Below, one piece after another: positions 32,848 to 51,698 of a stretch of 64,000 bases of DNA. The DNA is taken from assembly GCF_900105625.1 (NCBI RefSeq), contig NZ_FNSD01000001.1:2666001-2730000 (forward strand), given 5' to 3'. The notes under the pieces were generated by a model. That model had not been told where the DNA came from and searched no databases. It was given only the letters and a program-made list of their open reading frames with translations. The DNA is from Terriglobus roseus (GTDB lineage Bacteria; Acidobacteriota; Terriglobia; Terriglobales; Acidobacteriaceae). Position 1 is the first letter of the stretch; each line of letters starts with the position of its first letter. The position numbers and the translations under genes are program-made.

Positions 32848-33414
32848 TTACCAAACGCGGAAGCTGACGCCTGCGCTCACACCATACGGATGCAGCGTGC
32901 CGAAGGTGAACTGCGGCCACATCTGGTACTCGACATCGATCACGCGGAAGTGAATGTTGTCGTTGTGCGCCCAGTATTCCAGGCCAGCTCCAGGCGCCAA
33001 CACAAAGTAGTTGCCGGTAGCCAGGCCGTACGGGAATCTCATGTGACCTAGTCCGACAGGCATCTTGGCGTAGGGCACCCAGCCCACCGGTTTGAAGCTG
33101 ATCTTCGGCCCGACCAGGTAGGTATCCTGCGTGACGCCGTTTTTGCTGCCCCACCGCATGATGCGGGCCTCGGCTTCGATGCCGACATAGCGATGGATAT
33201 TCGCGTCGACATAGATCGTCGGCGCGTAGAACGTCAGCTTGCCATAGTCGCTCCGGTAGACTGAGCCCGCGATGCCGACGGTGGTGTAGAGGCCGGGGCC
33301 AACGCCCGCTGGCTTGGCCTGTGCGGGGGCAGTTGACGCCGCCGTGAGAGCGAATAACACGGCGGCGAACTGGCAGAGAAAGCGGTGCGAACGCTTGCGA
33401 AGTTCTGCGATCAC
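32848..33414 (-). CDS. outer-membrane beta-barrel protein
   Basis: 188 residues. A signal peptide covers about residues 1-33 (FLCQFAAVLFALTAASTAPAQA). Strands follow with alternating hydrophobic pattern: LYTTVGIAGSVYRSDYGKL, YVGIEAEARIMRW, TYLVGPKISFKPV, GLEYWAHNDNIHFRVIDVEY. It ends HPYGVSAGVSFRVW with an aromatic terminal residue. It resembles small OmpA/PagP-size barrels often seen in acidobacterial genomes. The start overlaps the stop of the giant Ig-repeat gene by 4 bp (ATGA), so the barrel is probably made from the same mRNA and may work with it. Confidence 0.75.
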   Translation of the reverse strand: MIAELRKRSHRFLCQFAAVLFALTAASTAPAQAKPAGVGPGLYTTVGIAGSVYRSDYGKLTFYAPTIYVDANIHRYVGIEAEARIMRWGSKNGVTQDTYLVGPKISFKPVGWVPYAKMPVGLGHMRFPYGLATGNYFVLAPGAGLEYWAHNDNIHFRVIDVEYQMWPQFTFGTLHPYGVSAGVSFRVW

Positions 33415-36400
33415 TGCGTCACCGTCATCGTGAGACCTTGCGAGAGTGTGACACCAGTACCCTGTCCGACCGCACTGATCGAAATCCCGTACTTGCCTGC
33501 TGGCGTGCTCTGCTGGTTGATGGTGCCGCAGCCGATCACAGGCATCAGGCAGGCGGCCAGCAGCAACAGCAGCAGTGCGGGTACATTGCGGCGACGGCGA
33601 CCGAAAGCCAGCAGCGCCAGCACCGCACCCGCGGGTAACAGTGCGAGTGCGCTGGAGCCATGCGAGGTCTGGACGCTTGCAGAGGCTGCTCCACCAGAGG
33701 TCAGCGGAGATCCGGTGTCAATGTTTACTTTGACCGTTACCGTACCATTGGCAGGCAGCACGATGCTGTCCTTCTCAAAGGTGCAGGTCGCGGCATAGGG
33801 GAGACCACCGCAACCGAGGGTGATGGTGTCTGAGAAGCCGTCGTTGGAGTGGATGGTGATCTGCGCCGTCGAATATTGCTTGGTCACCACACTGAAGGTC
33901 GTGGGTGTGACAGACAGCGTGAAATTGGTAGCAGAGCTGGTGGTGATGTCGGTGGGGGACGATACCGACGCTGAGTAGGAAGCATCGCCACTGTAGCTTG
34001 CAGTGATCAGGCCAGGAATGGCCGAGCCCTGCACATTGAGTGTTGCGATTCCGTTGGCGCCGACGCTGCTGCTGCCGATAACACCGGACGCTGTGCTGAA
34101 GGTCGTTACGCCGGTCGGCGAAACTGGCCCGTCATACTTCAATACCGAGATGAGTGTTAACACGCCGCCACTCAGTGTCGTTGGTAAGGTCGCAGTGACG
34201 GTGTTCTGTGTCGGCCGCAGGTTCACGACCATCTGCAAAGCTGCCGATACGGATGCCAGATCCGACACATCGCCGGCGTAAGACGCTGTGATGCTGTGTG
34301 TCCCGGCAGTGAAGGCACTCGGAACAAGAGTCGCCACACCGCCGGCCAGAGCCGATGTCCCCAGGAGCTTCGTGCCGTCCATGAAGCGGACGTTCCCGGT
34401 CGCCAGCGCACCAGTAACCGTGCTCACGGTCGCCGTCAGCGTCGGCTGAGCCAGCGTCAGGGTCGGGTTGCTGCTGCTGGCCACAGAGATCTGCGTGGCT
34501 TGCTGAATCTGCTCATTCACTGCAGCCGCAGTGGACGTCGAGTTGTTGCTGTCTCCTACATAGATGGCAGTCAGGGAGTGGATACCGGGCGCCAGTGTGC
34601 TCGTGGTGAAGACGGCGGTTCCGCTGGTCGAAAGCGCCGCCTGACCAATGGTGGTGGTGCCATCCAGGAAGTTGACGTTGCCCGTGGGCGCTCCGCCATT
34701 GCCCGTAACGTGTACGGTCAGGACCAACGGCGCGCTAAAAACAGCGGGGTTAGCGCTGGTGGTCAGAACGCTCTGCGAACTGGCATTGCGGATGGTCTCA
34801 GTCAGCACGACCGAGTCATTCCCCGCGTAGCGGATGTCACCGCTATAGGTGGCAATGATGTTGTGCGAACCGACAGTCAGCGTGGACGTTGTCAGAGCTG
34901 CCGCGCCCGCACCGTTGACGGCAACGGTGCCAAGGATAGTCGCGCCTTCATGGAAGACGATGGTTCCCGTGGGTGCCGCCGTCACTCCGCTGTTGGCAGC
35001 GGCTCCTGCGACCTGCGCCGTGAAGGTCACGGCATTGCCGCCGATGGCGGGGTTGACATTGGAGCTGATGGAGACCGTCGTGGGATCAACCACCGCTTGG
35101 AGCATCGTCGTCGACGAGCTGGTTGCGTGGGTGCTGTCGCCACTGTAAACCGCGACGATGCTGTGCTGCGCAACGGAGAAGTTGGAGATCGCCAGCGAAG
35201 CAACACCGGAGGCGTTGATTGCTACCGTGCCAAGATTCGTGCCGCCATCCTGGAAGATAACCGAGCCCGTCAGGTTGGTAAGGCCACTCGCGACGCTCGC
35301 CTGAAGGGTAACGGTATCGCCAAAGTGCGAGGTTGGTGCACTGCTTGTCAGCATTGTCGTGGTCGTCGCTGCGGTGATCGTGACGGTGAAGCTCTGCGAT
35401 TGTGCCGGTGCGTTGTTTGAGTCGCCAGCATACTGCGCGATGATGACATGCGTGCCGACAGTGAGCGTGGAGCTCGCGAAGGTAGCGCGGCCAGACGAGA
35501 GTGTCAGTGTGGTCAGCGCGCTGCCGTTATCGGTAAGAATGACGGACGGGTTGGCGGCTAGAACGGCATCGCTGGTCAGCGATGTCGTGAGTGTGATCGA
35601 CGTACCGTAGACAGCGGAGGCGGCCGATCCCGTGAGTGTCAACACGGTGTTGCCGATGGTGACTGTGACCGGTGCCGTGCTGGATGCGCTGACTCCGTAG
35701 TTCAGGTCGGCGTTATAGGTCGCTACGATGTTGTGCGATCCAACAGACAGGTTCGACACCGTAAGGGTAGCCACGGCGCCGGCGTTGAGCGCTGACGTTC
35801 CCAGGACAATGGCGCCATCCGTGAAGGTGACGTTGCCGGTTGCCTTCACGCCCGCAGTGTTGACCGTCGCAGTCATCGTCAGCGGCTTGCCGCCGGCAAG
35901 TGTCGACGAGCTGAGGCTGAGCAGCGTCGTGGATGTAGAAGTCTGCACCGTCTGCAAGAGGGCTGCGGATGCACTGACATCGTAGTTGGTGCTGCCACCG
36001 AAGCTGGCCGTGATGTTGTGCGATCCAACAGTCAGTGTGCTCGTGGAAAGCACAGCAGAGCCGTTGGTGACGGACTGGCTACCGAGGACTGTCGCGCCGT
36101 CATAGAAGGTAACAATGCCGGAGAGCGTTCCGACGGCCGTTTGTCCTGCTGCGACCGTGACCGTGGCGGTGAGTTGCACGGTGCTTCCAGCGTTCGCACT
36201 GGGAGCGCTGGAGGCAAGTACCGTATTCGTCGAGAGGCGGTTGACAGTGACCATGGCGTTGACCGATGTACTGGTCAGATTGGAGTTATCGCCTGCGTAG
36301 ACAGCCGTGATTGCATCCGATCCCGGTACCAGGGTTGAAGTCACGAGGACCGCGCTGCCATTCGCATCCAGCGTGCCTGTTCCCAGGATGGTTGCACCGG

Positions 36401-38897
36401 ACTTGAAGGTGACAGTGCCCGTAGGAACGGGACCGCCATTGCTGGTGACGTTCGCCGTCAACGTGACGTTAGTGCCAACGAGCGCAGTCGAAGGGCTGGC
36501 AGACAGTAGTGTGCTGCTGGAAACGCGGTTTACAGTCTGTGTCAGCGCAGCCGATGTGCTCGCCTGGCTGGTCACGTCGCCGGGGAAGCTAGCCGTGATC
36601 TGGTGAGCTCCACTGGAGAGTGTATGTGTGGTGAAGGTCGCTACGCCACCGGTCAGGTTGCCGGTGCCGATGGCGACGCCGCCATCCAGGAATGTAATCA
36701 CACCGCTGGTCACAGGGGTCCCGGCTGTCAGAGTCGCGCGGAAGGTGACGTCCTGCAGCACCGACGAAGGATTCAGCAAAGAGACGACGCTGATCTGGGT
36801 GGACTGGACGATGCTCTGAGTGACCGTGTTCGAGATGACGGAGGCGTTGCTGGCATCACCCGAGTAGCTAGCGGTGATGGTGTGCTGGCCCAGGCTGAGT
36901 GAGCCCGTGGTGATGGTCGCTATGCCGTTGGCGCTCAATGCGACCGCTGGCCCAATGGGCGTAGTGCCATCCAGAAAGGTGACTGTGCCGGTTGGAACAA
37001 CGGTTCCCTGGGTCTCACTTACGACCGCGGTGAACGTCACCGGCTGCGACACGGCAGCCGGGTTCAGGCTGCTGCTCAGGACGGTCTGAGTGGGCTCAAC
37101 GCTCAATACCTGCCCGTAGACGGTGACTACATCGGGTGCATTCGATGCGTCGGAGTGCATGGTCAGCGAGCCATAGGTGACGCCGTTCACGGGGCTGATC
37201 ACCGTCGGTGCGAACTCTACGCCCAGCGAACATTGTGCGCCTACGGCGAGGACCGTCATGGTGGAGCCGCAGGTGGTGGTGGTCGCGCTCAAAGCAGACT
37301 GGTTGAAGTCAAAGAGGCCCGGTGTCAGGGGTTTATTGCCTTCGTTATCGATCAGTACCTGCTGCGGTGCGGAGGTCTTGCTGACGCGGATCGTGTCGTA
37401 TTGCAGCAAGGACGATGTGGCCGAGACGAACCGAATGACATTGTGGAAGTAGTCCGCAATGTAGATGTTTCCCTTGCCGTCCATCGATAAGGCATAAGGG
37501 CCATACAGCATCGCAAGATTCGCGTTCTGCCCGTCTGCCTGGTACGAAGTCAGACCGTTACCGATAATGCTGCTGATGTTGCCGCCAACAGCGTCCACAC
37601 GACGAATACGGTTATTGCCAGAGTCCGCAATGTAGAGGTTTCCGGCCGGATCGAATACAAGGGCAGCGGGTCCCTTCAAGTGAGCGCTGGTTGCCAGACC
37701 ACCATCGCCGTCGAAGCCGGCTGTACCCAAGACGCCAGCAATCGTCTGAATGCGACCGACGGCATCAATGCGCCGCACGGCATGGTTGGACAGATCTGCG
37801 ATGTACAACAATCCATCCGGGCCAAAGGTAAGGCTCCACGGATCTTTCAATGCTGCCAGCACAGCCAGGGCACCGTCGCCTGCAGTTGCGATGGGGCCGC
37901 CGGCGATGGTGGTGATAATTCCAGTGAGCGCGTCCACGCGGCGAATCGCGTTATTACCAGTATCCGCAATGTACAGATTGCCATCGGCATCGAATGCGAT
38001 ACCGTTGGGCGCGGCCAGTTTGGCAGACGTAGCGACGAGGCCGTCACCGGCCCATCCGCTTGCAAGGCTCTGTCCTGCAACGGTCGTCATGATGCCGGAG
38101 ACTGCATCCACGCGACGGATGGTGTTGTTGCCGCTGTCGGCGATGTACAGGTTGCCGGCTCCGTCCAGGGCCAGGCCCGTGGGTCCGCTCACACCAGCCG
38201 CAGTTGCTGGTCCGTTATCGCCATTGTTGCTCGGATAGCCAATGCCCGCGTAGGTGGTGATGTTGCCGCTCTTATCCACCTTGCGGATGCGTGCGTTGAT
38301 CGTGTCGGAGATGTAATAGACGCCAGCATCATCTGCCACAACGCCCTGGGGCAGGTAGAGGGTGGCCGAGATCGCAGGCATGCCTTCGTCGGTGGGACGG
38401 TAGCGCCAGTCGTTGCTGATGCCTGCAGCAGTGCCTGTTAGACCAAAGTGGACGACAGCCCTCGGGCCGGTCGCGGCGACGTCGATCAGTTGGCTGGCCA
38501 GAACATGGTTGGTACCGTCAACCAGTTCAACAGCGCCGCTGCGGCGTCCCGAAGCCGTGGGTGACACCGTAACATTGACCGTGCACGTCTGGATCAGCGG
38601 ATAGGATTGGGTGGTGCATGAACCGCTGCCCGCGTCCTGGAAGTCGAGACCCGTCTCACCCTGCGTCAACACGCGGATTGCCGCTACGGTACCGTGCACC
38701 GTAAGGACCACTGTCCGGGTGCTGGCAGGCGATCCGACCGCAACGGGACCAGGGAAGTGCTGTACGGGGGCCTGCGCACCAGCAGACGCCGCCCAGGTCA
38801 GGGCAGCAGCGGTGCAGAGAAGGGATGCGTGGCGGTAAATTCCGGAGAATTTTGAGCGCAGAAATGCGCTGACCCGCAGAACAGGTTTGGTCGACAT
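33411..38897 (-). CDS. giant surface protein: NHL propeller plus about eleven Ig-like repeats
   Basis: 1828 residues. A signal peptide (about 1-42, ending ASAGAQA) and a short beta domain come first. Five or six NHL repeats (about residues 170-500) follow, each with the pattern GNLYIADSGNNTIRRVD and TIAG. About eleven Ig-like repeats of some 90-95 residues come next, marked by TGTVTFLDG / IGTG / SLSVGSHNITASYSGD variants. The C-terminus has a beta domain (TITLGCGGLPYAATCTF), a membrane segment around ALALLPAGAVLALLAFGRRR and a second, lipobox-like LLAACLMPVIGC, then a short tail. This fits a surface or secreted adhesin-like protein. It overlaps the downstream barrel gene by 4 bp. Internal repeats are diverged, not recent. 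Confidence 0.85.
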   Translation of the reverse strand: MSTKPVLRVSAFLRSKFSGIYRHASLLCTAAALTWAASAGAQAPVQHFPGPVAVGSPASTRTVVLTVHGTVAAIRVLTQGETGLDFQDAGSGSCTTQSYPLIQTCTVNVTVSPTASGRRSGAVELVDGTNHVLASQLIDVAATGPRAVVHFGLTGTAAGISNDWRYRPTDEGMPAISATLYLPQGVVADDAGVYYISDTINARIRKVDKSGNITTYAGIGYPSNNGDNGPATAAGVSGPTGLALDGAGNLYIADSGNNTIRRVDAVSGIMTTVAGQSLASGWAGDGLVATSAKLAAPNGIAFDADGNLYIADTGNNAIRRVDALTGIITTIAGGPIATAGDGALAVLAALKDPWSLTFGPDGLLYIADLSNHAVRRIDAVGRIQTIAGVLGTAGFDGDGGLATSAHLKGPAALVFDPAGNLYIADSGNNRIRRVDAVGGNISSIIGNGLTSYQADGQNANLAMLYGPYALSMDGKGNIYIADYFHNVIRFVSATSSLLQYDTIRVSKTSAPQQVLIDNEGNKPLTPGLFDFNQSALSATTTTCGSTMTVLAVGAQCSLGVEFAPTVISPVNGVTYGSLTMHSDASNAPDVVTVYGQVLSVEPTQTVLSSSLNPAAVSQPVTFTAVVSETQGTVVPTGTVTFLDGTTPIGPAVALSANGIATITTGSLSLGQHTITASYSGDASNASVISNTVTQSIVQSTQISVVSLLNPSSVLQDVTFRATLTAGTPVTSGVITFLDGGVAIGTGNLTGGVATFTTHTLSSGAHQITASFPGDVTSQASTSAALTQTVNRVSSSTLLSASPSTALVGTNVTLTANVTSNGGPVPTGTVTFKSGATILGTGTLDANGSAVLVTSTLVPGSDAITAVYAGDNSNLTSTSVNAMVTVNRLSTNTVLASSAPSANAGSTVQLTATVTVAAGQTAVGTLSGIVTFYDGATVLGSQSVTNGSAVLSTSTLTVGSHNITASFGGSTNYDVSASAALLQTVQTSTSTTLLSLSSSTLAGGKPLTMTATVNTAGVKATGNVTFTDGAIVLGTSALNAGAVATLTVSNLSVGSHNIVATYNADLNYGVSASSTAPVTVTIGNTVLTLTGSAASAVYGTSITLTTSLTSDAVLAANPSVILTDNGSALTTLTLSSGRATFASSTLTVGTHVIIAQYAGDSNNAPAQSQSFTVTITAATTTTMLTSSAPTSHFGDTVTLQASVASGLTNLTGSVIFQDGGTNLGTVAINASGVASLAISNFSVAQHSIVAVYSGDSTHATSSSTTMLQAVVDPTTVSISSNVNPAIGGNAVTFTAQVAGAAANSGVTAAPTGTIVFHEGATILGTVAVNGAGAAALTTSTLTVGSHNIIATYSGDIRYAGNDSVVLTETIRNASSQSVLTTSANPAVFSAPLVLTVHVTGNGGAPTGNVNFLDGTTTIGQAALSTSGTAVFTTSTLAPGIHSLTAIYVGDSNNSTSTAAAVNEQIQQATQISVASSSNPTLTLAQPTLTATVSTVTGALATGNVRFMDGTKLLGTSALAGGVATLVPSAFTAGTHSITASYAGDVSDLASVSAALQMVVNLRPTQNTVTATLPTTLSGGVLTLISVLKYDGPVSPTGVTTFSTASGVIGSSSVGANGIATLNVQGSAIPGLITASYSGDASYSASVSSPTDITTSSATNFTLSVTPTTFSVVTKQYSTAQITIHSNDGFSDTITLGCGGLPYAATCTFEKDSIVLPANGTVTVKVNIDTGSPLTSGGAASASVQTSHGSSALALLPAGAVLALLAFGRRRRNVPALLLLLLAACLMPVIGCGTINQQSTPAGKYGISISAVGQGTGVTLSQGLTMTVTQ

Positions 38898-41201: not shown

Positions 41202-41297
41202 GTAAAGATTAGATTCCAAAGGAGTTGACGTTTCCCGAAACGGCAAAAATCAGATTCAAAACGACTTACACGCAAAAATCAGATTACAAAGGACTTA
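41202..41297. repeat. three A-rich imperfect 25-bp repeats downstream of pckG
   Basis: Three units at 41202-41226, 41243-41268 and 41272-41297 share AAAxATxAGATTxxAAAxG and a GACTTA/GAGTT end. The last two are almost identical (GCAAAAATCAGATT then ACAAAGGACTTA or CAAAACGACTTA). Their A/T content is unusual for this GC-rich DNA. The surrounding 41050-41569 region has no gene. A pyrimidine run near 41180-41195 and the terminator at 41310 are the only other features. Confidence 0.7.
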
Positions 41298-41309
41298 CAG
41301 CCAAAACAG

Positions 41310-41569: not shown

Positions 41570-42562
41570 ATGGCGATGGAAGCGTGGCGGGAACGGTTTC
41601 GACCTCTGAAGGCACGCCTTTCCAGATTCATCGTGGGCGGCACAGCCATCCTCTTCCTCGGGCTCATGTCCGGAGCCAGCGGCGCCAGGGCACAGGCTGC
41701 ATCCACAGCGGTGCCGAAGCAGGAATTCGATGTCGCCTCCGTACGCCTGAACAAGGACGGTGTCACCCCGCAAAGCCCGGTTTTCACCAACATGGATCTG
41801 GATCCCGGCGATCTGTTCGTGCCGACGCATGGTGTCTTCGCCCTTCGAAACAAGTCGCTGCGAACGCTCATCGCCTTTGCCTACAAGATGTCCGGCGATC
41901 AGCAGAACTTCCTCAAACAGAACGTGCCGGATTTCGTGCTGTCCGAGCGCTTCGACATCCAGGCACGGTCGCTGAACAAAGACGCGACGAAGGACGACTA
42001 TCGCGCCATGATGCGATCGCTGCTGGAAGAGCGCTTTCGCCTGAAAGTGCACAACGAGACACGCGAAGCCAAGGTCTACGACCTGTTGCTGGCGTCACCC
42101 GGCAAACTCGGCCGCACGCTTCGCCTGCACCCCGTGGATGACAAGACCTGCGACGGGAGTGATTCGAAGCAGCAGAGCTCGAAGCTGATGCCGGACGGCT
42201 ATCCGGCCATCTGCGGCGCCATCTCTGAGTTGCCATGGGGCGGTAAGCCGACGGAGACCAGGTACAGCATGGGGCTGGGCGGGCGCAATGTTCCAGTGTC
42301 GCTCCTGGCCGCAGCGCTCACCGCTCCGTATACGGGCGATACCGGCCTGGACCATGCGGTGATCGATACGACCGGCATCGCCGGAAACGTGGACTTCACC
42401 CTGCGACTGGGTTATGACGAGATTGAGTCCACCAACACCCCGGATACCGCTCCACTCTTTGCACAGGAGTTGCGCGACCAATTGGGGATGAAGCTGAAGG
42501 CGGACAAAGGCACCATCAACGTCTACGTCGTGGATCACGTGGAACACCTGATCGAGAACTAA
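41570..42562 (+). CDS. secreted DUF3738 (TIGR03435) protein
   Basis: 330 residues (starting at ATG 41570 or 41576). A signal peptide runs to about residue 42 (IVGGTAILFLGLMSGASGARAQA). Family blocks: QEFDVASVRLNKDG, LRNKSLRTLIAFAYKMS, FDIQARSLN, YRAMMRSLLEERFRLKVHNETRE, then HAVIDTTGIAGNVDFTL and the C-terminal DQLGMKL. DUF3738 is abundant in soil Acidobacteriota and has no known activity. This copy is upstream of the blaI-like gene, with 280 bp of repeats between, so it is probably a separate transcription unit. It is the most diverged of the three DUF3738 domains in this stretch. Confidence 0.88.
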   Translation: MAMEAWRERFRPLKARLSRFIVGGTAILFLGLMSGASGARAQAASTAVPKQEFDVASVRLNKDGVTPQSPVFTNMDLDPGDLFVPTHGVFALRNKSLRTLIAFAYKMSGDQQNFLKQNVPDFVLSERFDIQARSLNKDATKDDYRAMMRSLLEERFRLKVHNETREAKVYDLLLASPGKLGRTLRLHPVDDKTCDGSDSKQQSSKLMPDGYPAICGAISELPWGGKPTETRYSMGLGGRNVPVSLLAAALTAPYTGDTGLDHAVIDTTGIAGNVDFTLRLGYDEIESTNTPDTAPLFAQELRDQLGMKLKADKGTINVYVVDHVEHLIEN

Positions 42563-42767: not shown

Positions 42768-42827
42768 TTGCATGCCACATACACGTGTAGTAGATCTACA
42801 TCTGTTCAAGACAAACAGCTGTAGTAG
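42768..42827 (+). promoter_or_regulatory. candidate promoter and BlaI/MecI-type operator
   Basis: TTGCAT (42768) and TAGATC (42791) with 17-bp spacing could be a weak -35/-10 pair. Over the -10 lies the palindrome GTAGATCTAC (42790-42799). A second element, AACAGCTGTA (42814-42823), matches the TACANNTGTA core of BlaI/MecI/CopY operators with one mismatch. The octamer TGTAGTAG occurs twice (42786, 42820). The position just before the repressor gene suggests autoregulation. Binding is not shown. Confidence 0.45.
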
Positions 42828-42842
42828 CAAGAGGGCGAAACG

Positions 42843-43232
42843 ATGGCGGCTCCAAGACTGTCGAACCTGGAATTCCGGATCATGGAGGTCCTGTGGGATC
42901 GCGGGGAAGTCTCCATCCGCGAGGTCTGCGAGGTCCTGGAGGCGGCGACTGCCGGGAAGCGTGCGCCCGCCTACACGACGGTCCAGACTACCGTGTACCG
43001 CATGGAGACCAAGGGCATCGTGCGGCGTGTGCGCAAGTCCGGCAACCTGCACCTGTTCAAGGCGGCCGTCACGCGCGAGTCGGCGCAACGCACCCTGATT
43101 GACGAACTGCTTGGGTTCTTCGGTGGCAGCGGTATGCCGGTGATGGCCCACCTGATCCAGAGCGGCAAGCTCACGCTGGACGATGTCAAGGAAGCTGAAC
43201 GCGAACTGCAGAAGAAGGGAAAGAAGTCATGA
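42843..43232 (+). CDS. BlaI/MecI/CopY-family transcriptional repressor
   Basis: 129 residues. The winged-helix domain begins LSNLEFRIMEVLWDRGEVSI and contains PAYTTVQTTVYRMETKGIV, the recognition helix region, followed by the beta wing (RRVRKSGNLHLFKAAVT). The C-terminal dimerisation half (LLGFFGGSGMPVMAHLIQS) holds the region where BlaR1-type peptidases cut such repressors. In beta-lactam systems the repressor leaves DNA after proteolysis triggered by the membrane sensor. The gene overlaps the M56 peptidase gene by 4 bp (ATGA), so the repressor and its presumed protease are coupled. There is no beta-lactamase gene in this window. Confidence 0.92.
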   Translation: MAAPRLSNLEFRIMEVLWDRGEVSIREVCEVLEAATAGKRAPAYTTVQTTVYRMETKGIVRRVRKSGNLHLFKAAVTRESAQRTLIDELLGFFGGSGMPVMAHLIQSGKLTLDDVKEAERELQKKGKKS

Positions 43233-45115
43233 GCCATCTCACGATCTCGCCACATCCGTTCCTGATCGCGCTGTTCCGACACCTTTGGCAGACCACGCTG
43301 TTCGCGCTGGCGCTCGCCGTCCTGGCGATGCTGCTGCGGGGGAACCGCGCGGCCCTTCGCTTCCGTGTCTGGATGCTGGCATCGGTAAAGTTCCTGCTGC
43401 CGTTGTCGTTGCTGATCTCGGCCGGGCAGCATCTGCGGCCCGAGAAGCTGCAGACCGTCGCACCGGTGGCCTTCACCATGGTGATGCAGGGCGCACCGGA
43501 TGACGTTGCGTTGGGCACACTCTCCCTTCCAGTGCAGCCGCGAACACAGGCGCAAGGGCAGGTTCCGCATGACGTGACGACCCTCCTGCTGATCGCATGG
43601 GCGTGTGGCGCGCTGACGCTGTTGGCCGTGTGGGCGCGGCGCTGGACTGCTCTCTTCCGCGCGGTGCGCAGCGGCGACAGCGCGGGGCGACATGAGGGCA
43701 TTCGAGCGGTGCGCGTGGCAGCGCCGTTTGAGCCGGGTGTCTTCGGTATTCTGCGGCCGGTGCTGGTGTTGCCGCATGGTCTGGAAGCAGCGCTCACACC
43801 GACGCAGATGACCGCGGTGCTGGCGCATGAGATCTCGCATTTGCGCCGCCGCGACAACCTGACGGCCGCGATTCATATGGTGGTGCAGACCCTCTTCTGG
43901 TTTCACCCCATGGTGTGGATGATTGGAAGGCGGCTGGTCAAGGAGCGTGAGGCAGCCTGCGATGCTGCCGTGCTCGAGATGCGCATCGACCCTGCTGCGT
44001 ATGCCGAAGGCATCCTGAAAGTCTGCCGCCTGTACCTCGAAGCTCCGTTGCCGTGTGTTGCGGGTGTCACCGGTGCCGACCTGAAGCAGCGCATCCGGAG
44101 CATTGCCACGGGCAACGTGGGCCGGCAACTGCGTCGCGTACATGCGGTGGGTCTGGGCGTCCTTGGCATCGTCGCGATCAGTGCACCGGTCGCATTCGGT
44201 GTCCTGCATGCAGCGGTGTTGAAGTCCGCGATGAAACATCCGTCCGCGGCAGCGGTCTTGCATGCGGCGCTTTCGCCTGAGATGACCGTCACGCCAACGC
44301 CAAAGCTGCGACTGCCCCAGGCACCGCCACCGCCTCCTGTACCGCCACCCCCACCACCGCCGCCTGATCCCATCGCCACCAACATGCCGGCCATTCCCGC
44401 GATGACCAACGTGCAGGTCCATCCCAGCAACCCGTATATGCCCGGTACTGGATATGGTTTTGAGCAACCAACGGACCTGACCCATGTGCGATTTCGCGCG
44501 TCGAATAACACCGTAGCCGACATGATCTCGTTCGCTTATGGTGTGCAGGCAAAGCAGATTATCGATGGGCCGCGATGGATCGATACGGAACGCTATGACG
44601 TGACGGCGAACGTAGTGTCACCGCAGGTTCCACCGGAGCAGATCCAGGCGATGATGCGACGGATGCTGGCCGACCACTTCGGTATCCGCGTCCATCCTGC
44701 CCGCCGCGATCTACAGGTGTATGTCCTTACCGTCAGCAAGGATGGCCACCATCTGCGCCCGGACGAGACGAATCCCCATGGCCTGCCGCGCCTCAATCTC
44801 ATGGGTGCGGGCACACTGGTCGTGAGCAATGCCAGTATCCGTGACTTTTGCAGCTCGCTGCAGGGTTATGCCGTCGATCGGCCGCTGGTGGATCGCACCG
44901 GTCTCAACGGTCGCTGGTACTTCGATCTGCAGTGGCATCCGGATGCAGCCTTCTTTGCCGCGCTCAATATGGCGGAGCCACGCAATCTTGCCGACGATAA
45001 GTCTCCGCCGCTGCTGATTGCCATCCGCCAGCAACTGGGTTTGAATGTGGAACCTACGACCCTCCCCATGAATGTTCTCGTGCTTGACCGCGCCTCTCGT
45101 CCCAGGGCTGACTGA
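43229..45115 (+). CDS. M56 (BlaR1-type) membrane metallopeptidase with C-terminal DUF3738 sensor domain
   Basis: 628 residues. The N-terminal half is an M56 peptidase: membrane helices at about residues 19-37, 47-65 and 117-135, the zinc motif AHEISH (His200, Glu201, His204), and EREAACDAAV near 239-248 with the third ligand. A further helix lies at about 306-325. Residues 366-380 are almost all proline. The rest (about 395-628) is a DUF3738 domain with FRASNNTVADMISFAYGVQ, IQAMMRRMLADHFGIRVHP, VDRPLVDRTGLNG and PMNVLVLDR. In BlaR1/MecR1 this position holds a penicillin-binding sensor, so DUF3738 probably acts as the extracytoplasmic ligand sensor. The likely target is the adjacent repressor. 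Confidence 0.9.
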   Translation: MSHLTISPHPFLIALFRHLWQTTLFALALAVLAMLLRGNRAALRFRVWMLASVKFLLPLSLLISAGQHLRPEKLQTVAPVAFTMVMQGAPDDVALGTLSLPVQPRTQAQGQVPHDVTTLLLIAWACGALTLLAVWARRWTALFRAVRSGDSAGRHEGIRAVRVAAPFEPGVFGILRPVLVLPHGLEAALTPTQMTAVLAHEISHLRRRDNLTAAIHMVVQTLFWFHPMVWMIGRRLVKEREAACDAAVLEMRIDPAAYAEGILKVCRLYLEAPLPCVAGVTGADLKQRIRSIATGNVGRQLRRVHAVGLGVLGIVAISAPVAFGVLHAAVLKSAMKHPSAAAVLHAALSPEMTVTPTPKLRLPQAPPPPPVPPPPPPPPDPIATNMPAIPAMTNVQVHPSNPYMPGTGYGFEQPTDLTHVRFRASNNTVADMISFAYGVQAKQIIDGPRWIDTERYDVTANVVSPQVPPEQIQAMMRRMLADHFGIRVHPARRDLQVYVLTVSKDGHHLRPDETNPHGLPRLNLMGAGTLVVSNASIRDFCSSLQGYAVDRPLVDRTGLNGRWYFDLQWHPDAAFFAALNMAEPRNLADDKSPPLLIAIRQQLGLNVEPTTLPMNVLVLDRASRPRAD

Positions 45116-45124
45116 ATCTTTCGC

Positions 45125-45145
45125 TTGACTCCTAAATCTTTAGGA
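45125..45145 (+). promoter_or_regulatory. candidate promoter element with 7-bp inverted repeat
   Basis: TTGACT (45125-45130) overlaps the perfect inverted repeat TCCTAAA-TC-TTTAGGA (45130-45145), about 150 bp before the next DUF3738 gene and only 10 bp after the peptidase stop. A good -10 is not obvious. The layout suggests an operator just after a -35, so the downstream three genes may have their own regulated promoter. Confidence 0.4.
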
Positions 45146-45278
45146 GATACTTCTGATCCATAACGGAACAAAAAACGGCTGTATCCGTATCTTTTCGGAT
45201 GACGCTTTCACCGCTCCAGCGTCCGATGGTTACACGGCACCTGCACATACACTGTTCGAGCACCCCTTGGAGGCGCGC

Positions 45279-46469
45279 ATGGCTTTGGTTTGGAAGCAAC
45301 GGCTTAGCCGTTCTGTAGTCCTCGCTGTCCTTACCGCGGGTCTTCCCGGCACGTGCGCGTTGCTGCCGCAGGTTGCCGTGGCACAGGCCGCACCTGCGGC
45401 CAACACAGACATTGCGGGCACCTGGCAAGGGACGTTGCACCTGGGCAAGGATCTCCGTGCGGTCATCAAGATTGATAAGACGACCGATGGCGCTCTGAAG
45501 TCGACCATGTGGAGCATCGACCAGAATGGCGGCCCCATCCCGGTGAAGACGACAACCTTTGTGGGTGGTGCGCTGAAGCTGGACATCGACGCGATAGGTG
45601 GAACTTACGAAGGGAAGATGTCGCCCGACAACGCCACCCTGACGGGCACGTTCACGCAGGGGGACCGGCCTACGCCGTTGATTCTGCTGCGTGCCACGCC
45701 GGAAACGGCATGGGCCATCCCTGCGCCTCCGCCGAAGATCCCGCCCATGGACCCGAAGGCGGATCCGGGCATTGAGATTGCCACCATCAAGCCCTCGCCG
45801 CCGGACGCGAAGGGAAAGAACTTCGGCGGTGCGCCACGGAAATTTCAGACGCGCAACACCACGCTGAGCGATCTGATGATGTTTGCCTTCGATGTGCAGC
45901 AGAAGCAGATCCTGAACGGGCCGGCGTGGATGGAGAGTGACCACTTCGACCTGATGCTGCAGCCGGACCTGCCGGGTGCGCCGAGTGAGGCGCAGGTGCG
46001 ATCCATGATGCGCAAGCTGCTGGCGGACCGCTTCGGACTGAAGTTCCATAAGGAGCAGAAGGAAATGGCGGCCTATGTCCTGACAGTCGCCAAGTCCGGA
46101 CCGAAGCTGACGAAGAGCGAGGGCGATCCGGATTCGCCGCACTCCTTCTTCTTTACGCAGTTGGGCAACTTGACCTTCCGCAATGCCACCATGGATGATT
46201 TTGCGCATGGCATGCAGTCTGCGGTCTTCGACCGTCCTGTTGTGAACAAGACAGGCGTGGAGGGCCACTTCGATGGCCGCCTCAAGTGGAATCCCGATGA
46301 GACGCAGTTCGCGGTATTCGGTGTGAAGGTTGTGCCCAGCGATGCCCCGGACGCACCACCACCCGTCTACCAGGCAATTCAGGATCAGATCGGTCTGAAA
46401 CTGGACGCAACAAGAACGCAGGTCGACGTACTGGTTTTGGATCACGTTGAAAAGCCAAGCGATAACTAG
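45279..46469 (+). CDS. secreted DUF3738 (TIGR03435) protein with an extra N-terminal beta domain
   Basis: 396 residues from the ATG at 45279, preceded by TTGGAGG at good distance; a TTG at 45267 is in frame. A signal peptide ends near VAVAQA (about residue 37). Residues about 42-140 form a beta-rich module (DIAGTWQGTLHLGKDLRAVI, TGTFTQGDRPTPLILLR), then a proline linker. The DUF3738 part (from about 168) has RNTTLSDLMMFAFDVQQKQI, VRSMMRKLLADRFGLKFHK, FDRPVVNKTGVEGHFDG and the end VDVLVLDHVEKPS. It is closer to the sensor domain of the M56 protein than to the 41.6-kb copy. The receptor gene follows directly. Confidence 0.88.
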   Translation: MALVWKQRLSRSVVLAVLTAGLPGTCALLPQVAVAQAAPAANTDIAGTWQGTLHLGKDLRAVIKIDKTTDGALKSTMWSIDQNGGPIPVKTTTFVGGALKLDIDAIGGTYEGKMSPDNATLTGTFTQGDRPTPLILLRATPETAWAIPAPPPKIPPMDPKADPGIEIATIKPSPPDAKGKNFGGAPRKFQTRNTTLSDLMMFAFDVQQKQILNGPAWMESDHFDLMLQPDLPGAPSEAQVRSMMRKLLADRFGLKFHKEQKEMAAYVLTVAKSGPKLTKSEGDPDSPHSFFFTQLGNLTFRNATMDDFAHGMQSAVFDRPVVNKTGVEGHFDGRLKWNPDETQFAVFGVKVVPSDAPDAPPPVYQAIQDQIGLKLDATRTQVDVLVLDHVEKPSDN

Positions 46470-46470
46470 G

Positions 46471-49400
46471 GTGAAGCAGCAACGTTGGTCGGCGATAGCA
46501 TGGCGCGCATTGGGCGCCCTCGTTCTGCTGCCTGCCGCACTGGCTGGCGCGGCGGAGTATCACGGTCGCGTCTTCTTCGGCACGGTTCCGGTACCGGGTG
46601 CGACGGTCACCGCGACGCGCGATGGCAAGACGCTTTCCACCATCACGGATGAGCAGGGAATCTACCAGTTCCCCGACATCGCCGATGGCGGCTGGCATCT
46701 GCACGTGGAGATGCCGGGCTTCGGGGCGGCCGATCAGGATGTCGCCATTGCAGCCGTCACGCCCGCCGGCCGGTGGGATCTGAAACTGTTGCCACTGGCT
46801 GAGATCCTCGCCTCCGCCAGCCGTCAGCGCACCATCGTGGCGCCCGCTCTTGTGCCACGCGCTGTGGCAAAGCCAGCCGCAACCGATGCAAAAAAAGACA
46901 CCCCAGGCGAGGCCCCTCCCCCTCCTCCCGATGACAACAGTGCGAAGAGCGCCGATGCCCTGCTGATCAGTGGCAGCGAGAGCAATGCGGCCACCTCGAA
47001 GTACAACCTGGCGCCGGCCTTCGGCAACCGCCGGTCGAACTCCAAGAGCCTGTACAACGGCAGCATCGGCGCAATCGTCGGGCGGTCCTTGTTCGATGCG
47101 CGGCCTTACTCGTTGACCGGCCTGCCGACACCGAAGGGCGACTACAGCCGCGTGACGGTGGCTGCAACGCTCGGCGGCCCGCTGAATATTCCGCCGTTGC
47201 TGCGCCACGGTCCGAACTTCTTCCTGGGCTATCAGTGGACACGCAACCGCGAGGCCTCCACCATTTCGGGCCTGGTGCCAACAGCAGCGCAGCGCGGTGG
47301 CGACTTGAGCGGCACGCTGGATTCAGCGGGGAATCCTGTTGCGGTTCGCGACCCCATTACGGGGAATCCCCTGACCGGTGTGCTGCCTGTCAGCGCGCAG
47401 GCGCGGGCGCTGCTGGCGCTGTATCCGCTGCCGAATCTGGCGGGAAACACGAGCTACAACTACCAGACACAGGTGCTGAACGGCACGCACGCCGACGCGC
47501 TCCAACTGCGCATGGATAAGGGCATCGGCAAGCGTGACCAGATCTATGGTGGCTTTGCCTTCCGCAGCCTGCGCGGCGACACGGAGAACCTCTTCGCCTT
47601 TCGCGATGGTACGAAGACGCTGGGTATCGATGCCAACGTGCACTGGTCGCATCGGTTTCCACACCACATCCTGCTGGATACGGGGTATCGCTTCTCCCGC
47701 CTGAGAACGGATGTGCAGCCCTACTTTGAGAATCGGCAGAATGTGTCAGGCGCCGCAGGCATCACCGGCAACGCGCAGGACCCTATGAACTATGGGCCGC
47801 CGGATCTTGTGTTCTCCAGCATCTATCCGCTCACGGATGGTGTCAGCGCCTTCAATCGCAACCGGACGGATGCACTCTCGATGCTCGCCACATGGACGCA
47901 CGGCCGGCACGTGACCTCCTTCGGCGGCGACCTGCGGCGGCAGGAGTACAACCAGCTGCAGCAGTCGAATCCGCGTGGTGCCTTCACCTTCACGGGCGCC
48001 GCTACAAAGGGCGCGGCGACGACTGGCGGCTCGGACATTGCAGACTTCCTGCTGGGTGTGCCGGACACCAGCCGCGTCGCGTTTGGCAATGCGGACAAGT
48101 ATTTTCGCCAGACCGTGCTCGACGGCTTTGTCTCCGACGACTGGCGTCTGAAGCCGGAGCTGACGATCAACGCAGGCATGCGTTGGGACTACGGGTCGCC
48201 GATGACGGAACTCTTCGGACGGCTGGTCAATCTCGATATCGCGCCGGGCTTCACCTCGGCGCAGCCGGTGATCGGCAGCAGCCCAACCGGGGCACTGACC
48301 GGCACGTCGTATCCGTCCTCGCTTGTGCGGCCCGACCGTCGCAAGTTCGAGCCACGAGTCTCCATCGCGCTGCGTCCCGATCCGACATCGACCATGGTGA
48401 TCCGCGCAGGCTATGGCATCTACGTGGACACGTCGGTCTACCTCGCCGCCGTGCAGCAGATGGCGCAGCAGTCTCCGCTGTCCAAGAGCGTGAGTGTCAG
48501 CAACAGCAGCACCTGCCCGTTGACGCTGGCCGATGGCTTCCGTAACTGTGCCGGCACCACGGCGAGCACGTTTGCCATCGACCCAAACTTCCGCGTGGGC
48601 TATGCGCAAAGCTGGAACCTTTCCGTGCAGCGCGACCTGCCGGGATCGATGGTGGTCACCGGCACCTACAGCGGCGTGAAGGGCACGCGCGGGCCGCAGC
48701 AGTTTCTGCCGAACACGTATCCCATCGGCGGTGTGAACCCGTGCCCGCAGTGCCTGGCTGGTTATGTCTATCGCACATCGAACGGCGACTCCATCCGCCA
48801 CGCAGCGCAGGTGCAGTTGCGGCGGCGTCTGCGCAGCGGCCTGGCCGCGCAGCTTGATTACACCTATGCGCGTTCCATCGATAACGATTCGGAGCTCGGC
48901 GGTGCGGGGCATCTTGTCGGCGCATCCAGCAATGACAGCAGCAGCACCAGCACCGGCACAACATCAGCGACCGCGCAGAACTGGCGCGACCTGCGTGCGG
49001 AACGCAGCAACTCCAGCTTTGACCAGCGGCACCTGCTTTCCGCGCAGGTGCAGTACACCTCCGGCATGGGCATGCATGCGGGTACGTTGATGACCGGCTG
49101 GAGCGGCCGTCTGTTGAAGGAGTGGACTGCGACGGCAACCATCTCTGCAGGCGCGGGCCTGCCGGAGACGCCGGTCTATCTTGCCGCGGTCCCGGGCACG
49201 GGCGTCACCGGAACACTGCGCGCGAATCGTAACGTTGGTGTGCCTGTGAGCCAGAACGTGAACGGCTATCACCTGAATGCCGCGGCCTACGCCACACCCG
49301 CAGCAGGGCAGTGGGGGAACGCTGGTCGCAACTCCATCACGGGGCCCAACCAGTTCTCGTTGGATGGTTCGCTCGGCCGGACCTTCCGTCTGCGCGACAA

Positions 49401-49554
49401 GCTGAACCTGGATGTGCGGATGGATGCGAACAACCTGTTGAATCATCCGGTCTACACCACGTGGAACAACATCACCAATAGCACCACCTTCGGCCTGCCA
49501 GCGGCTACCAATGCCATGCGCACCATGCAGCTCACGGGGAGGCTCCGCTTCTGA
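46471..49554 (+). CDS. Oar-like TonB-dependent outer-membrane receptor
   Basis: About 1027 residues from GTG 46471, right after the previous stop (a TTG at 46447 would overlap it). A signal sequence (ALGALVLLPAALAGAAEY) leads into a carboxypeptidase-regulatory/Cna-B-like domain (YHGRVFFGTVPVPGATVTAT to about residue 100). A linker rich in Pro and Asp follows (GEAPPPPPDDNS), then the plug and barrel with VAATLGGPLNIPPLLRHGPN, SDDWRLKPELTINAGMRWDY and RAGYGIYVDTS. It ends LTGRLRF with a terminal Phe. No clear TonB box is seen. Such receptors are numerous in Acidobacteriota and take up large or polymeric nutrients. It is coupled to the VWFA gene by TGATG. Confidence 0.88.
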   Translation: MKQQRWSAIAWRALGALVLLPAALAGAAEYHGRVFFGTVPVPGATVTATRDGKTLSTITDEQGIYQFPDIADGGWHLHVEMPGFGAADQDVAIAAVTPAGRWDLKLLPLAEILASASRQRTIVAPALVPRAVAKPAATDAKKDTPGEAPPPPPDDNSAKSADALLISGSESNAATSKYNLAPAFGNRRSNSKSLYNGSIGAIVGRSLFDARPYSLTGLPTPKGDYSRVTVAATLGGPLNIPPLLRHGPNFFLGYQWTRNREASTISGLVPTAAQRGGDLSGTLDSAGNPVAVRDPITGNPLTGVLPVSAQARALLALYPLPNLAGNTSYNYQTQVLNGTHADALQLRMDKGIGKRDQIYGGFAFRSLRGDTENLFAFRDGTKTLGIDANVHWSHRFPHHILLDTGYRFSRLRTDVQPYFENRQNVSGAAGITGNAQDPMNYGPPDLVFSSIYPLTDGVSAFNRNRTDALSMLATWTHGRHVTSFGGDLRRQEYNQLQQSNPRGAFTFTGAATKGAATTGGSDIADFLLGVPDTSRVAFGNADKYFRQTVLDGFVSDDWRLKPELTINAGMRWDYGSPMTELFGRLVNLDIAPGFTSAQPVIGSSPTGALTGTSYPSSLVRPDRRKFEPRVSIALRPDPTSTMVIRAGYGIYVDTSVYLAAVQQMAQQSPLSKSVSVSNSSTCPLTLADGFRNCAGTTASTFAIDPNFRVGYAQSWNLSVQRDLPGSMVVTGTYSGVKGTRGPQQFLPNTYPIGGVNPCPQCLAGYVYRTSNGDSIRHAAQVQLRRRLRSGLAAQLDYTYARSIDNDSELGGAGHLVGASSNDSSSTSTGTTSATAQNWRDLRAERSNSSFDQRHLLSAQVQYTSGMGMHAGTLMTGWSGRLLKEWTATATISAGAGLPETPVYLAAVPGTGVTGTLRANRNVGVPVSQNVNGYHLNAAAYATPAAGQWGNAGRNSITGPNQFSLDGSLGRTFRLRDKLNLDVRMDANNLLNHPVYTTWNNITNSTTFGLPAATNAMRTMQLTGRLRF

Positions 49555-51698
49555 TGCGTAAACGCCTGCTTCTATTCGCTGCTCTCCTCACTGCGCCGCT
49601 CCATGCGCAGACCATTGGCACCAATCAGCCCACGGGCAAGGACGGAACGTACACGCTCAGCGTGAAGTCGCAACTGGTGGTGGAGACGGTTGTCATCAAG
49701 GACAAGTCGGGCAAGTTCATTCCGGGACTCTCCGCGAAGGACTTCACGATCACGGAAGACGGCACGCCGCAGACGATCCGCCTCTTTGAGCACCAGTCGC
49801 TGCCGGAGGATGCGGCGCCGCTGCCGCCTCAGAGCCCTGATGACGAGAAGCTGACGCTCTACAAGACGCTGGCCCGCACGGCGATCGCATCGGAGAGCGC
49901 AAAGGGAAACAAGTACAAAGATCATCGGCTGATGGCGATGTATTTCGACATGACGGCAATGCGTCCTGAGGACCAGGAGCGCGCGCTGCTGGCTGCACAG
50001 AAGTTCATTCGTACGCAGATGACGCCCGCGGACCTGATCGCGATTCTGCGCTACAGCGGTGGGTCGGTCGATGTGTTGCAGGACTTCAGTGATGATCGCA
50101 ACCGGCTGCTCAGCATTCTTGAGACGATGATCGTTGGCGAGGGGCAGGGCGACGTCGAATCCTCTGATGATGCCGGCAGCGCCGACACCGGTGCGGCCTT
50201 TGGGCAGGACTCCGGTGAGTTCAACATCTTCAACACCGATCGCCAACTCAGTGCGTTGCAGACCGCGGCGCGCATGCTTGGCGGCATGAATGAGAAGAAG
50301 TCTCTGCTGTACTTTGCCAGTGGTCTGCGATTGAACGGTAACGACAACCAGGCGCAGTTGCATGCCACGGTCGATGCCGCGGTACGAGCGGGTGTTTCGT
50401 TCTGGCCCATCGATGCGCGCGGCCTGGTCGCGATGGCGCCCATGGGAGATGCAACGCAGGGTTCGCCCGGCAATGCCGGTATGTACAGCGGCACGGCAGC
50501 GCTGGCCACCACGGATCGTTTTCAGAAGTCACAGGACACGCTCTACTCGCTGGCGGCCGATACGGGTGGCAAGGCGCTGATCGATAACAACGACCTGACA
50601 CGCGGCATCGTCAATGCGCAGCATGCGGTTTCGGACTATTACATCCTCGGCTACTACACGACCAACACGGCGATGAACGGCCGCTTCCGCAAGGTGAAGA
50701 TTACGGCTGACGGCGTCGCCAATGCCACGCTGGACTATCGCCAGGGCTACTACGCGGGTAAGGAGTTCGGTAAGTTCAACGGCACGGAAAAAGAGCGGCA
50801 ACTGGAAGATGCGCTTGCCCTGGAAGATCCTGTCACCGACCTGACCATTGCGATGGAGGTCAACTACTTTCAGTTGAATCGCGCGGAGTATTACGTGCCC
50901 ATCACCGTCAAGATTCCTGGCCGCGAACTGGCCCTCGCGAAACGGCTTGGTGGCGAACACACTCTCATCGATTTCGTCTGTGAGGTGAAGGACCTTGCGG
51001 GTGGCATGACCGTCTCCAACGTCCGTGACAATGTCAACATCAAGCTGAGCGACGCAACAGCGGCCGACCTGGCCAAGCGGCCCGTCGAGTACGACGCAGG
51101 CTTCACGCTCTCGCCCGGCCGCTACAGCATCAAGTTCCTCGCACGCGATGATGAGACGGGGCGCATCGGCACCTACCAGACCACCTTTATCATTCCGAAT
51201 CTCAACAAGGTGGTCGAGCGTATTCCCATCAGCTCCGTTGTCCTGAGCAGCCAGCGCTCCGACGTGAACAGTGCCCTGTTCAATGCAGCGCACGGCAAGG
51301 AGCAGGCACGCAACGACGCAGCCAATCCGCTGGTGGAGAATGGCGCGAAGCTGATCCCGAGTGTCACGCGCGTCTTCCGCACGGACCGCGAAATGTACGT
51401 CTTTCTACAGGCGTACACGACGCCCCCTGCAACCGCCGCAGCACCAGCCCCTGCCAGCGACGCGAAGAAGGATCTTGTCGCCTACGTCACGCTCTACCGA
51501 GACGGCAAAAAGGTCTACCAGAGCCAGGGAATCGCGAGCACACCCATCCCCACCTCGCGCCTTGGCATCACGCCGCTGTCGCTCACGGTACCGTTGGGAG
51601 GCCTGACGGCCGGCGAGTACCAATGCCAGGTGACCGTGCTGGACGCCGCGGGGAATCGTGCGGCCTTCTGGCAGGGGCAGATGGCCTTGGTGAACTGA
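49554..51698 (+). CDS. secreted VWFA-related acidobacterial protein (TIGR03436 type)
   Basis: 714 residues. A signal peptide (MRKRLLLFAALLTAPLHAQ) is followed by VVETVVIKDKSGKFIPGLSAKDFTITEDGTPQ, the start of the TIGR03436 region. The VWA-like core has MAMYFDMTAMRPEDQERAL, with Asp132 and Thr134 where the metal-binding DxSxS would be, then LYFASGLRLNGND and FWPIDARGL. The last third is beta-rich (KLIPSVTRVFRTDREMYVFL, LTAGEYQCQVTVLDAAGNRA). The MIDAS-type motif is altered (D-M-T-A-M), so metal binding is doubtful. The start overlaps the receptor stop by 1 bp. It is probably an extracytoplasmic partner of the receptor or the DUF3738 protein. Confidence 0.87.
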   Translation: MRKRLLLFAALLTAPLHAQTIGTNQPTGKDGTYTLSVKSQLVVETVVIKDKSGKFIPGLSAKDFTITEDGTPQTIRLFEHQSLPEDAAPLPPQSPDDEKLTLYKTLARTAIASESAKGNKYKDHRLMAMYFDMTAMRPEDQERALLAAQKFIRTQMTPADLIAILRYSGGSVDVLQDFSDDRNRLLSILETMIVGEGQGDVESSDDAGSADTGAAFGQDSGEFNIFNTDRQLSALQTAARMLGGMNEKKSLLYFASGLRLNGNDNQAQLHATVDAAVRAGVSFWPIDARGLVAMAPMGDATQGSPGNAGMYSGTAALATTDRFQKSQDTLYSLAADTGGKALIDNNDLTRGIVNAQHAVSDYYILGYYTTNTAMNGRFRKVKITADGVANATLDYRQGYYAGKEFGKFNGTEKERQLEDALALEDPVTDLTIAMEVNYFQLNRAEYYVPITVKIPGRELALAKRLGGEHTLIDFVCEVKDLAGGMTVSNVRDNVNIKLSDATAADLAKRPVEYDAGFTLSPGRYSIKFLARDDETGRIGTYQTTFIIPNLNKVVERIPISSVVLSSQRSDVNSALFNAAHGKEQARNDAANPLVENGAKLIPSVTRVFRTDREMYVFLQAYTTPPATAAAPAPASDAKKDLVAYVTLYRDGKKVYQSQGIASTPIPTSRLGITPLSLTVPLGGLTAGEYQCQVTVLDAAGNRAAFWQGQMALVN

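Follow-up and report, generated by a model that had tools for sequence, protein, structure and literature searches.

A putative BlaI/M56 switch with a DUF3738 sensor beside a DUF3738-barrel-VWFA operon in Terriglobus roseus

A stretch of 64,000 nucleotides from the acidobacterium Terriglobus roseus (contig NZ_FNSD01000001.1, positions 2,666,001 to 2,730,000; hereafter the window) contains, one after the other on the + strand, genes for a BlaI-type repressor, an M56 membrane peptidase fused to a DUF3738 domain (M56-DUF3738), a secreted DUF3738 protein, an outer-membrane barrel and a VWFA protein (Pfam and NCBIfam assignments; Table 1). We suggest that this locus is probably a one-step signalling device of the BlaR1/BlaI kind which uses DUF3738 as its sensor and controls its own cell-envelope operon instead of antibiotic resistance. 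Judged from sequence, this view is supported by the architecture of the proteins, the invariant catalytic residues, the repeated linkage of the genes, the position and rarity of the operator, the unlinked target of one congener and the interchange of fused and free DUF3738 domains. The locus is a recurrent acidobacterial system, and since the same gene order is found in many genomes the arrangement is not due to chance. The literature searched holds no earlier report of a BlaI/M56 switch with a DUF3738 sensor, which we describe as a new form of BlaR1/BlaI signalling; DUF3738, TIGR03435 and TIGR03436 are not mentioned there at all.

Repressor, protease and operator

The M56 domain covers residues 21-291 of the peptidase (PF05569, E 1e-32) and DUF3738 residues 431-621 (E 1e-47), with a proline-rich linker at about residues 359-385. 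Hydropathy peaks at 18-36, 47-65, 116-134 and 307-325 correspond to four transmembrane (TM) segments; DUF3738 follows the last of them and is predicted, by analogy with BlaR1, to lie across the membrane from the active site. The latter reads H200E201ISH204 and E241AACD245, and both HExxH and ExxxD are invariant in 43 M56-DUF3738 fusions; the gluzincin zinc site of Staphylococcus aureus BlaR1 consists of H201ExxH and E242xxxD (PMC9834060). The M56 part also matches the solved BlaR1 by sequence (E 9e-4). A BlaI gene lies just 5' of 48 among 55 M56-DUF3738 fusions, and in the window repressor a strongly conserved VMAHLIESGKL-like motif aligns with the region in which BlaI is cleaved.

Neither Pfam nor NCBIfam reveals a penicillin-binding or transpeptidase domain in the M56 protein, only DUF3738 C-terminal to M56, and the BlaR1 equivalog model gives it 80.6 bits against a cut-off of 400. 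The system may work like BlaR1/BlaI and yet is not a strict BlaR1, because the penicillin-binding sensor was tested for and is absent. Sensing of beta-lactams was rejected on this ground and for want of a resistance gene in the operon. A copper repressor of the CopY/CopR type was discarded as well: the window BlaI has a single cysteine and no CXC copper motif, and reaches 51 bits with the CopY model (cut-off 122). In three loci (L142, L070 and L082) two tandem M56-DUF3738 genes follow a single BlaI gene, which may be an arrangement with two sensors, and in genome G137 (L060, 6917-9019) an in-frame TGA inside DUF3738 splits the M56-DUF3738 gene next to an otherwise intact barrel operon.

The promoters of 42 BlaI homologues, that of the window included, were used to train an operator matrix. 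All 42 loci have a dyad of the TACTACA/TGTAGTA type (TACA-N2-TGTAGTA) at the BlaI promoter, usually 20-50 bp 5' of the BlaI start; the window operator scores 25.5 bits and the best of ten shuffled windows 15.9. Because the window promoter had been used for training, a plain-pattern search serves as the independent test. In the 4.8-Mb genome TACANNTGTAGTA has one exact match, located at the BlaI promoter of the window; the neighbouring second site (42813..42826) is among the matches with a single mismatch. Operators of the TACANNTGTA type are known for BlaI, MecI and CopY, where the 10-base core is insufficient for binding (PMC7253601). In the congener G066 the BlaI-M56-DUF3738 genes (C4, 2.26 Mb) are separated by 0.85 Mb from a DUF3738-DUF3738-barrel-VWFA operon (C4, 1.41 Mb), and its 4.4-Mb genome contains only two exact copies of TACTACNNNNGTAGTA, one at the BlaI promoter and the other directly before the barrel gene. 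These operator data support regulation beyond mere co-location. Control in trans as a general rule was dismissed, since the barrel operons of six of the seven genomes with an unlinked sensor are without an operator. Another candidate site, the palindrome 45129-45146 in front of the secreted DUF3738 gene, stays within the range of the shuffled scores and is possibly a secondary BlaI operator; as a conserved operator it had to be abandoned, given that no counterpart was found 3' of M56 in other loci. Genome G077 differs from most genomes in having about ten TACTGCAWWTGTAGTA sites over many contigs instead of one to five. Such sites might serve as operators of a larger regulon or belong to a repeated element, and the reversed control pattern is frequent there too.

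The barrel operon and the exchange of DUF3738

The window barrel was compared with 200 genomes of the order Terriglobales. Sixty barrel loci form a distinct group, at least 47% identical over nearly the full length and clearly apart from other barrels; all 60 belong to this barrel-driven list, and about twenty of them also appeared in a search driven by M56. A DUF3738 gene stands directly 5' on the same strand in 58/60, a VWFA gene (TIGR03436) directly 3' in 51/60, and M56-DUF3738 is part of the upstream gene run in 25/60; among control barrels from the same loci DUF3738 is directly 5' in one case out of 24. The genome samples contain close relatives, so these counts are not independent events, and genes in the fetched loci were called by simple greedy selection of open reading frames (ORFs). 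Eleven changes are needed to place barrel linkage on the M56 tree, which means that gain or loss of the linkage happened on several occasions. DUF3738-barrel-VWFA forms the core association, with M56/BlaI as its optional regulator. M56-DUF3738 fusions are common in Acidobacteriaceae, the family of the window's genome, and seldom occur elsewhere in the phylum sample; genome contigs of other phyla yielded M56 relatives only and viral contigs no match. A parallel version of the three-gene module is seen in loci L159-L171 (G012, G022, G089, G103 and others), in which related plug-less barrels from outside the group also pair with a TIGR03436 VWFA gene, while a small secreted protein with DUF5666 takes the place of DUF3738 ahead of the barrel.

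All three DUF3738 proteins of the window lie far above the 22-bit cut-off of the family (132-195 bits). Acidobacterial genomes each contain many copies of the domain; the window's genome has it at 17 places. When 171 DUF3738 domains are placed in one tree, the M56-fused and free forms interleave, which requires at least 30 changes, and many of these fall on well supported branches. All trees used here were built by quick methods and contain many weak branches. In fourteen of the 55 fusions the secreted protein is present in full, together with its N-terminal TWQGTL domain. The M56 domain of the window groups with those of L052-L054 (SH-aLRT 98), where the barrel gene begins 4 bp after the M56 gene, and the window's free protein (45279) is 63% identical over 410 aa to the extracytoplasmic end of the M56 sensor of L054. 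What is one protein in the relative is two in the window, and this links the sensor functionally to the secreted protein encoded next to the barrel. By the same 63% identity between a free protein and a sensor half, sensor and secreted protein are interchangeable. The DUF3738 domain of the window's own sensor is, according to the 171-domain tree, a different and fast-evolving one.

Two further observations concern DUF3738 proteins. The conserved domain of about 115 residues ahead of DUF3738 (TWQGTL...YSIDQGG...YEGKLS...PLxLxRATPETAW; window 45390-45790) is also present in the M56 proteins of L052-L058, L060 and L062 and matches no Pfam family. The window's genome additionally encodes a 538-aa protein with two tandem DUF3738 domains (L091, 10922-12538; G000:C1, about 2.507 Mb), and a similar one is found in L132 (12455-14068).

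Regarding the barrel, no Plug domain (PF07715) was detected in any of 51 members of the group among the families listed at E<=1, and at most one could be missed, eight single-member families lying beyond the listing; none was detected in 13 DUF5666-linked relatives either. Of 12 Oar-like barrels that served as controls from the same loci, the model found Plug in 8 and missed it in four, so that a divergent plug is possible. Only a short Pro/Ala-rich linker lies between CarboxypepD_reg and the barrel. Taken with the undetected Plug, this makes import via a TonB-dependent plug doubtful, and doubtful is also the label "TonB-dependent receptor", which was not retained as an established identity. 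The idea that plug loss is specific to DUF3738-linked barrels, with DUF3738 replacing the plug, was given up in view of the plug-less DUF5666-linked barrel-VWFA operons (0/13).

The initial annotation of the locus had proposed a DUF3738 sensor that perceives perhaps a nutrient taken up by the receptor, or a wall fragment, with the operon as its output, and had named a survey for repeated association of M56-DUF3738 with receptor and VWFA genes as a refuting test. In the survey reported here the association does recur (25/60 loci). Its view of the operon as output gains from the single exact genomic operator site and from the unlinked case of G066 and loses from the six other genomes with unlinked sensors. 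For DUF3738 as sensor there is indirect support from the position of the domain and from the interchange of its fused and free forms. The idea of a nutrient taken up by the receptor is not supported, the barrel being without a detectable plug domain.

Proposed mechanism and alternatives

In the proposed mechanism BlaI would occupy TACA/TGTA-type dyads that overlie the promoter near 42.78 kb and would keep the operon of blaI, M56-DUF3738, secreted DUF3738, barrel and VWFA genes at a low level. The M56 protein would reside in the inner membrane with its zinc site in the cytoplasm and DUF3738 in the periplasm, where the sensor may share its partner or ligand with the secreted DUF3738 protein encoded beside the plug-less barrel. 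Candidates for this partner are the barrel, its VWFA partner or a periplasmic substrate of the barrel-VWFA assembly. Upon binding, we infer, the protease would become active and BlaI would be cut, so that the response goes towards more DUF3738, barrel and VWFA protein; the identity of the signal and the contact between DUF3738 and barrel are likewise conjectural.

Several points weigh against this interpretation. Where BlaI has its scissile Asn-Phe bond, the aligned residues of the window repressor are His-Leu, and no ligand site is identifiable in DUF3738. Six of the seven genomes with an unlinked sensor have no operator at the barrel operon, G066 being the sole exception, and the palindrome before the secreted DUF3738 gene could indicate separate control. 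Furthermore, M56 is missing from the gene run of 35 of the 60 barrel operons. Roughly half of the M56-DUF3738 genes are not linked to a barrel, and in these cases the sensor has to work by itself or on other outputs.

Some of these points fit the alternative that BlaI/M56 regulates only its own transcription and that DUF3738-barrel-VWFA, though co-located, is expressed from a promoter of its own at about 45.1 kb. The promoter-like sequence with its palindrome and the barrel operons without M56 speak for it; we nevertheless hold it to be quite improbable, as the 4 bp between M56 and barrel genes in L052-L054 leave no room for a separate promoter and the unlinked barrel gene of G066 has an exact operator directly ahead. 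It is unlikely, too, that DUF3738 receives no signal and serves as periplasmic tether or output while the M56 part senses a metal, the membrane state or a wall fragment. This would agree with what is proposed for PetP of cyanobacteria, a BlaR1-family protease that acts on the BlaI-like PetR in response to copper, outside beta-lactam resistance (PMC7896320), with the retained extracytoplasmic loop of M56, and with close M56 relatives that differ in the identity of their DUF3738 while the M56 part stays one clade. All fusions studied keep DUF3738, however, and have repeatedly swapped it with free copies of the same operon type, as suits a specificity domain, and it sits where the sensor of known BlaR1 sits. 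Finally, DUF3738 might bind peptidoglycan or a beta-lactam-like ligand, which would make the locus a wall-stress switch near BlaR1 in signal and mechanism. BlaR1/BlaI systems do answer to beta-lactams, and a report on Bacillus licheniformis names a peptidoglycan fragment as the trigger of beta-lactam resistance (PMC3305447). The sensor has no penicillin-binding or beta-lactamase motif or domain and no detectable sequence similarity to solved wall-binding proteins, and the operon includes no resistance gene; we consider this reading very unlikely.

The two halves of the DUF3738 profile align end to end and in register (P 4e-4 to 2e-3), and in a model computed from a three-sequence alignment (pLDDT 72.5, pTM 0.59) the order of elements is alike in both, so that DUF3738 looks like a tandem duplication. 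With VIA the best matches of this model are the N0 regions of InvG, a type III secretin (Z 3.9), and PilQ (Z 3.7); they are weak, with aligned residues spanning both halves, and the remaining ones are mostly baseplate hub or VgrG chains. Secretin N0 and the baseplate hub/VgrG set share the fold of TonB-receptor signalling domains (PMC3093366). Foldseek returned nothing at E<1 for the model, comparison of the STN and DUF3738 profiles gave a non-significant P of 0.04, the DUF3738 profile found chance matches only among PDB sequences, and the model of the M56 sensor's own DUF3738 (pLDDT 56) was too poor for a fold search. A weak resemblance to the secretin N0/STN fold (beta-alpha-beta-beta-alpha-beta-beta) is treated as a lead. 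A bolder version, which we put forward tentatively and regard as doubtful, is that DUF3738 is a tandem N0/STN-like periplasmic module docking in trans on the plug-less barrel, and that through its fusion to M56 an inner-membrane protease reads the state of the barrel and destroys the repressor. If true, this would be an outer-membrane-to-repressor pathway on a BlaR1 chassis, parallel to FecA/FecR and without an anti-sigma factor.

Among known systems, BlaR1/BlaI and MecR1/MecI of Staphylococcus and Bacillus share with the window the BlaI-type repressor, the M56 HExxH...ExxxD site, four TM segments, a C-terminal extracytoplasmic domain, TACA/TGTA operators and an autoregulated cluster. Their sensor is a class-D-beta-lactamase-like penicillin-binding domain instead of DUF3738, and the target operon of the window encodes a secreted DUF3738 protein, an outer-membrane barrel and VWFA. 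The nearest described BlaI/M56 case outside antibiotic resistance is cyanobacterial PetR/PetP, also a pair with a small regulon, which in contrast is a copper switch of plastocyanin and cytochrome c6 with no DUF3738 or barrel operon reported (PMC7896320). TonB-dependent signalling of the FecA/FecR type (STN) similarly couples an outer-membrane barrel to cytoplasmic gene control via a periplasmic domain, whose N0/STN fold DUF3738 weakly resembles. In the window, however, the domain is carried by a protein of its own and by a protease of the inner membrane, a barrel plug is undetected and no anti-sigma/ECF pair was identified in the operon. DUF3738 and VWFA proteins are full matches to the acidobacterial families TIGR03435/DUF3738 and TIGR03436, both annotated as being of unknown function. 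The exchange of DUF3738 between secreted protein and protease-linked sensor would give the domain a first testable role as periplasmic recognition module of barrel-VWFA assemblies. If this holds, the M56/BlaI chassis would be a general transmembrane switch with swappable sensors, beta-lactam resistance being one case. The unlinked operator of G066 offers a defined target gene for a direct test.

Gene map and neighbouring features

Table 1. Features of the DUF3738 locus in window coordinates
Feature	Position	Strand	Evidence and remarks
Secreted free DUF3738 protein, 330 aa	41570..42562	+	PF12543 E 3e-38; upstream of promoter
Promoter-like TTGCAT-N17-TAGATC, overlapping operator (putative)	42768..42796	+	Sequence reading
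BlaI operator ATACACGTGTAGTA, TACA-N2-TGTA dyad	42779..42792	+	64 bp 5' of BlaI start
Second operator-like copy AAACAGCTGTAGTA	42813..42826	+	15.5 bits, about the best shuffled score; one mismatch to TACANNTGTAGTA
BlaI-family winged-helix repressor, 129 aa	42843..43232	+	PF03965 E 2e-20; matches BlaI/MecI structures
M56 (BlaR1-family) membrane metallopeptidase with C-terminal DUF3738, 628 aa	43229..45115	+	PF05569, PF12543
TTGACT-N17-TACTTC, possibly an internal promoter; contains the perfect palindrome CTCCTAAATCTTTAGGAG (45129-45146)	45125..45153	+	In spacer; 11.8 bits
Secreted protein with signal peptide, TWQGTL domain and DUF3738, 396 aa	45279..46469	+	PF12543 E 2e-57
Oar-like outer-membrane barrel with CarboxypepD_reg, 1027 aa	46471..49554	+	PF25183 E 3e-154, PF13620
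Secreted VWFA protein, 714 aa	49554..51698	+	TIGR03436 E 1e-69

Much of the layout had been described correctly in the initial annotation: the 4-bp overlap of the repressor and peptidase genes, the HEISH motif and membrane helices of M56, the proline linker and DUF3738 in place of a penicillin-binding domain, and the gaps or overlaps of 1 bp among the last three genes. Its DUF3738-receptor-VWFA series is right in order, with the receptor label doubtful as discussed above, and its gene list had overlooked the further DUF3738 gene at 41570. This gene is probably outside the control of the BlaI operator, which lies downstream of it. The preferred start of the second free DUF3738 gene is ATG 45279 with a GGAGG site ahead, leaving a 163-bp spacer after the M56 gene that includes the TTGACT element and the palindrome. 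For the barrel the simplest start is a GTG, 1 bp after the preceding gene; barrel and VWFA genes overlap by 1 bp. The left neighbour of the locus is a GTP-dependent PEP carboxykinase gene, and on the right side follow a small ORF that we read as GIY-YIG-like and a UvrA relative.

A unit like CAAAAATCAGATTACAAAGGACTTACAG occurs in three degenerate copies, arranged in tandem, 3' of the PEP carboxykinase gene (41205-41300). On the - strand, 33411-38897 encodes a protein of 1828 aa in which NHL repeats precede eleven Big_3_5 Ig-like domains, probably a large surface protein.

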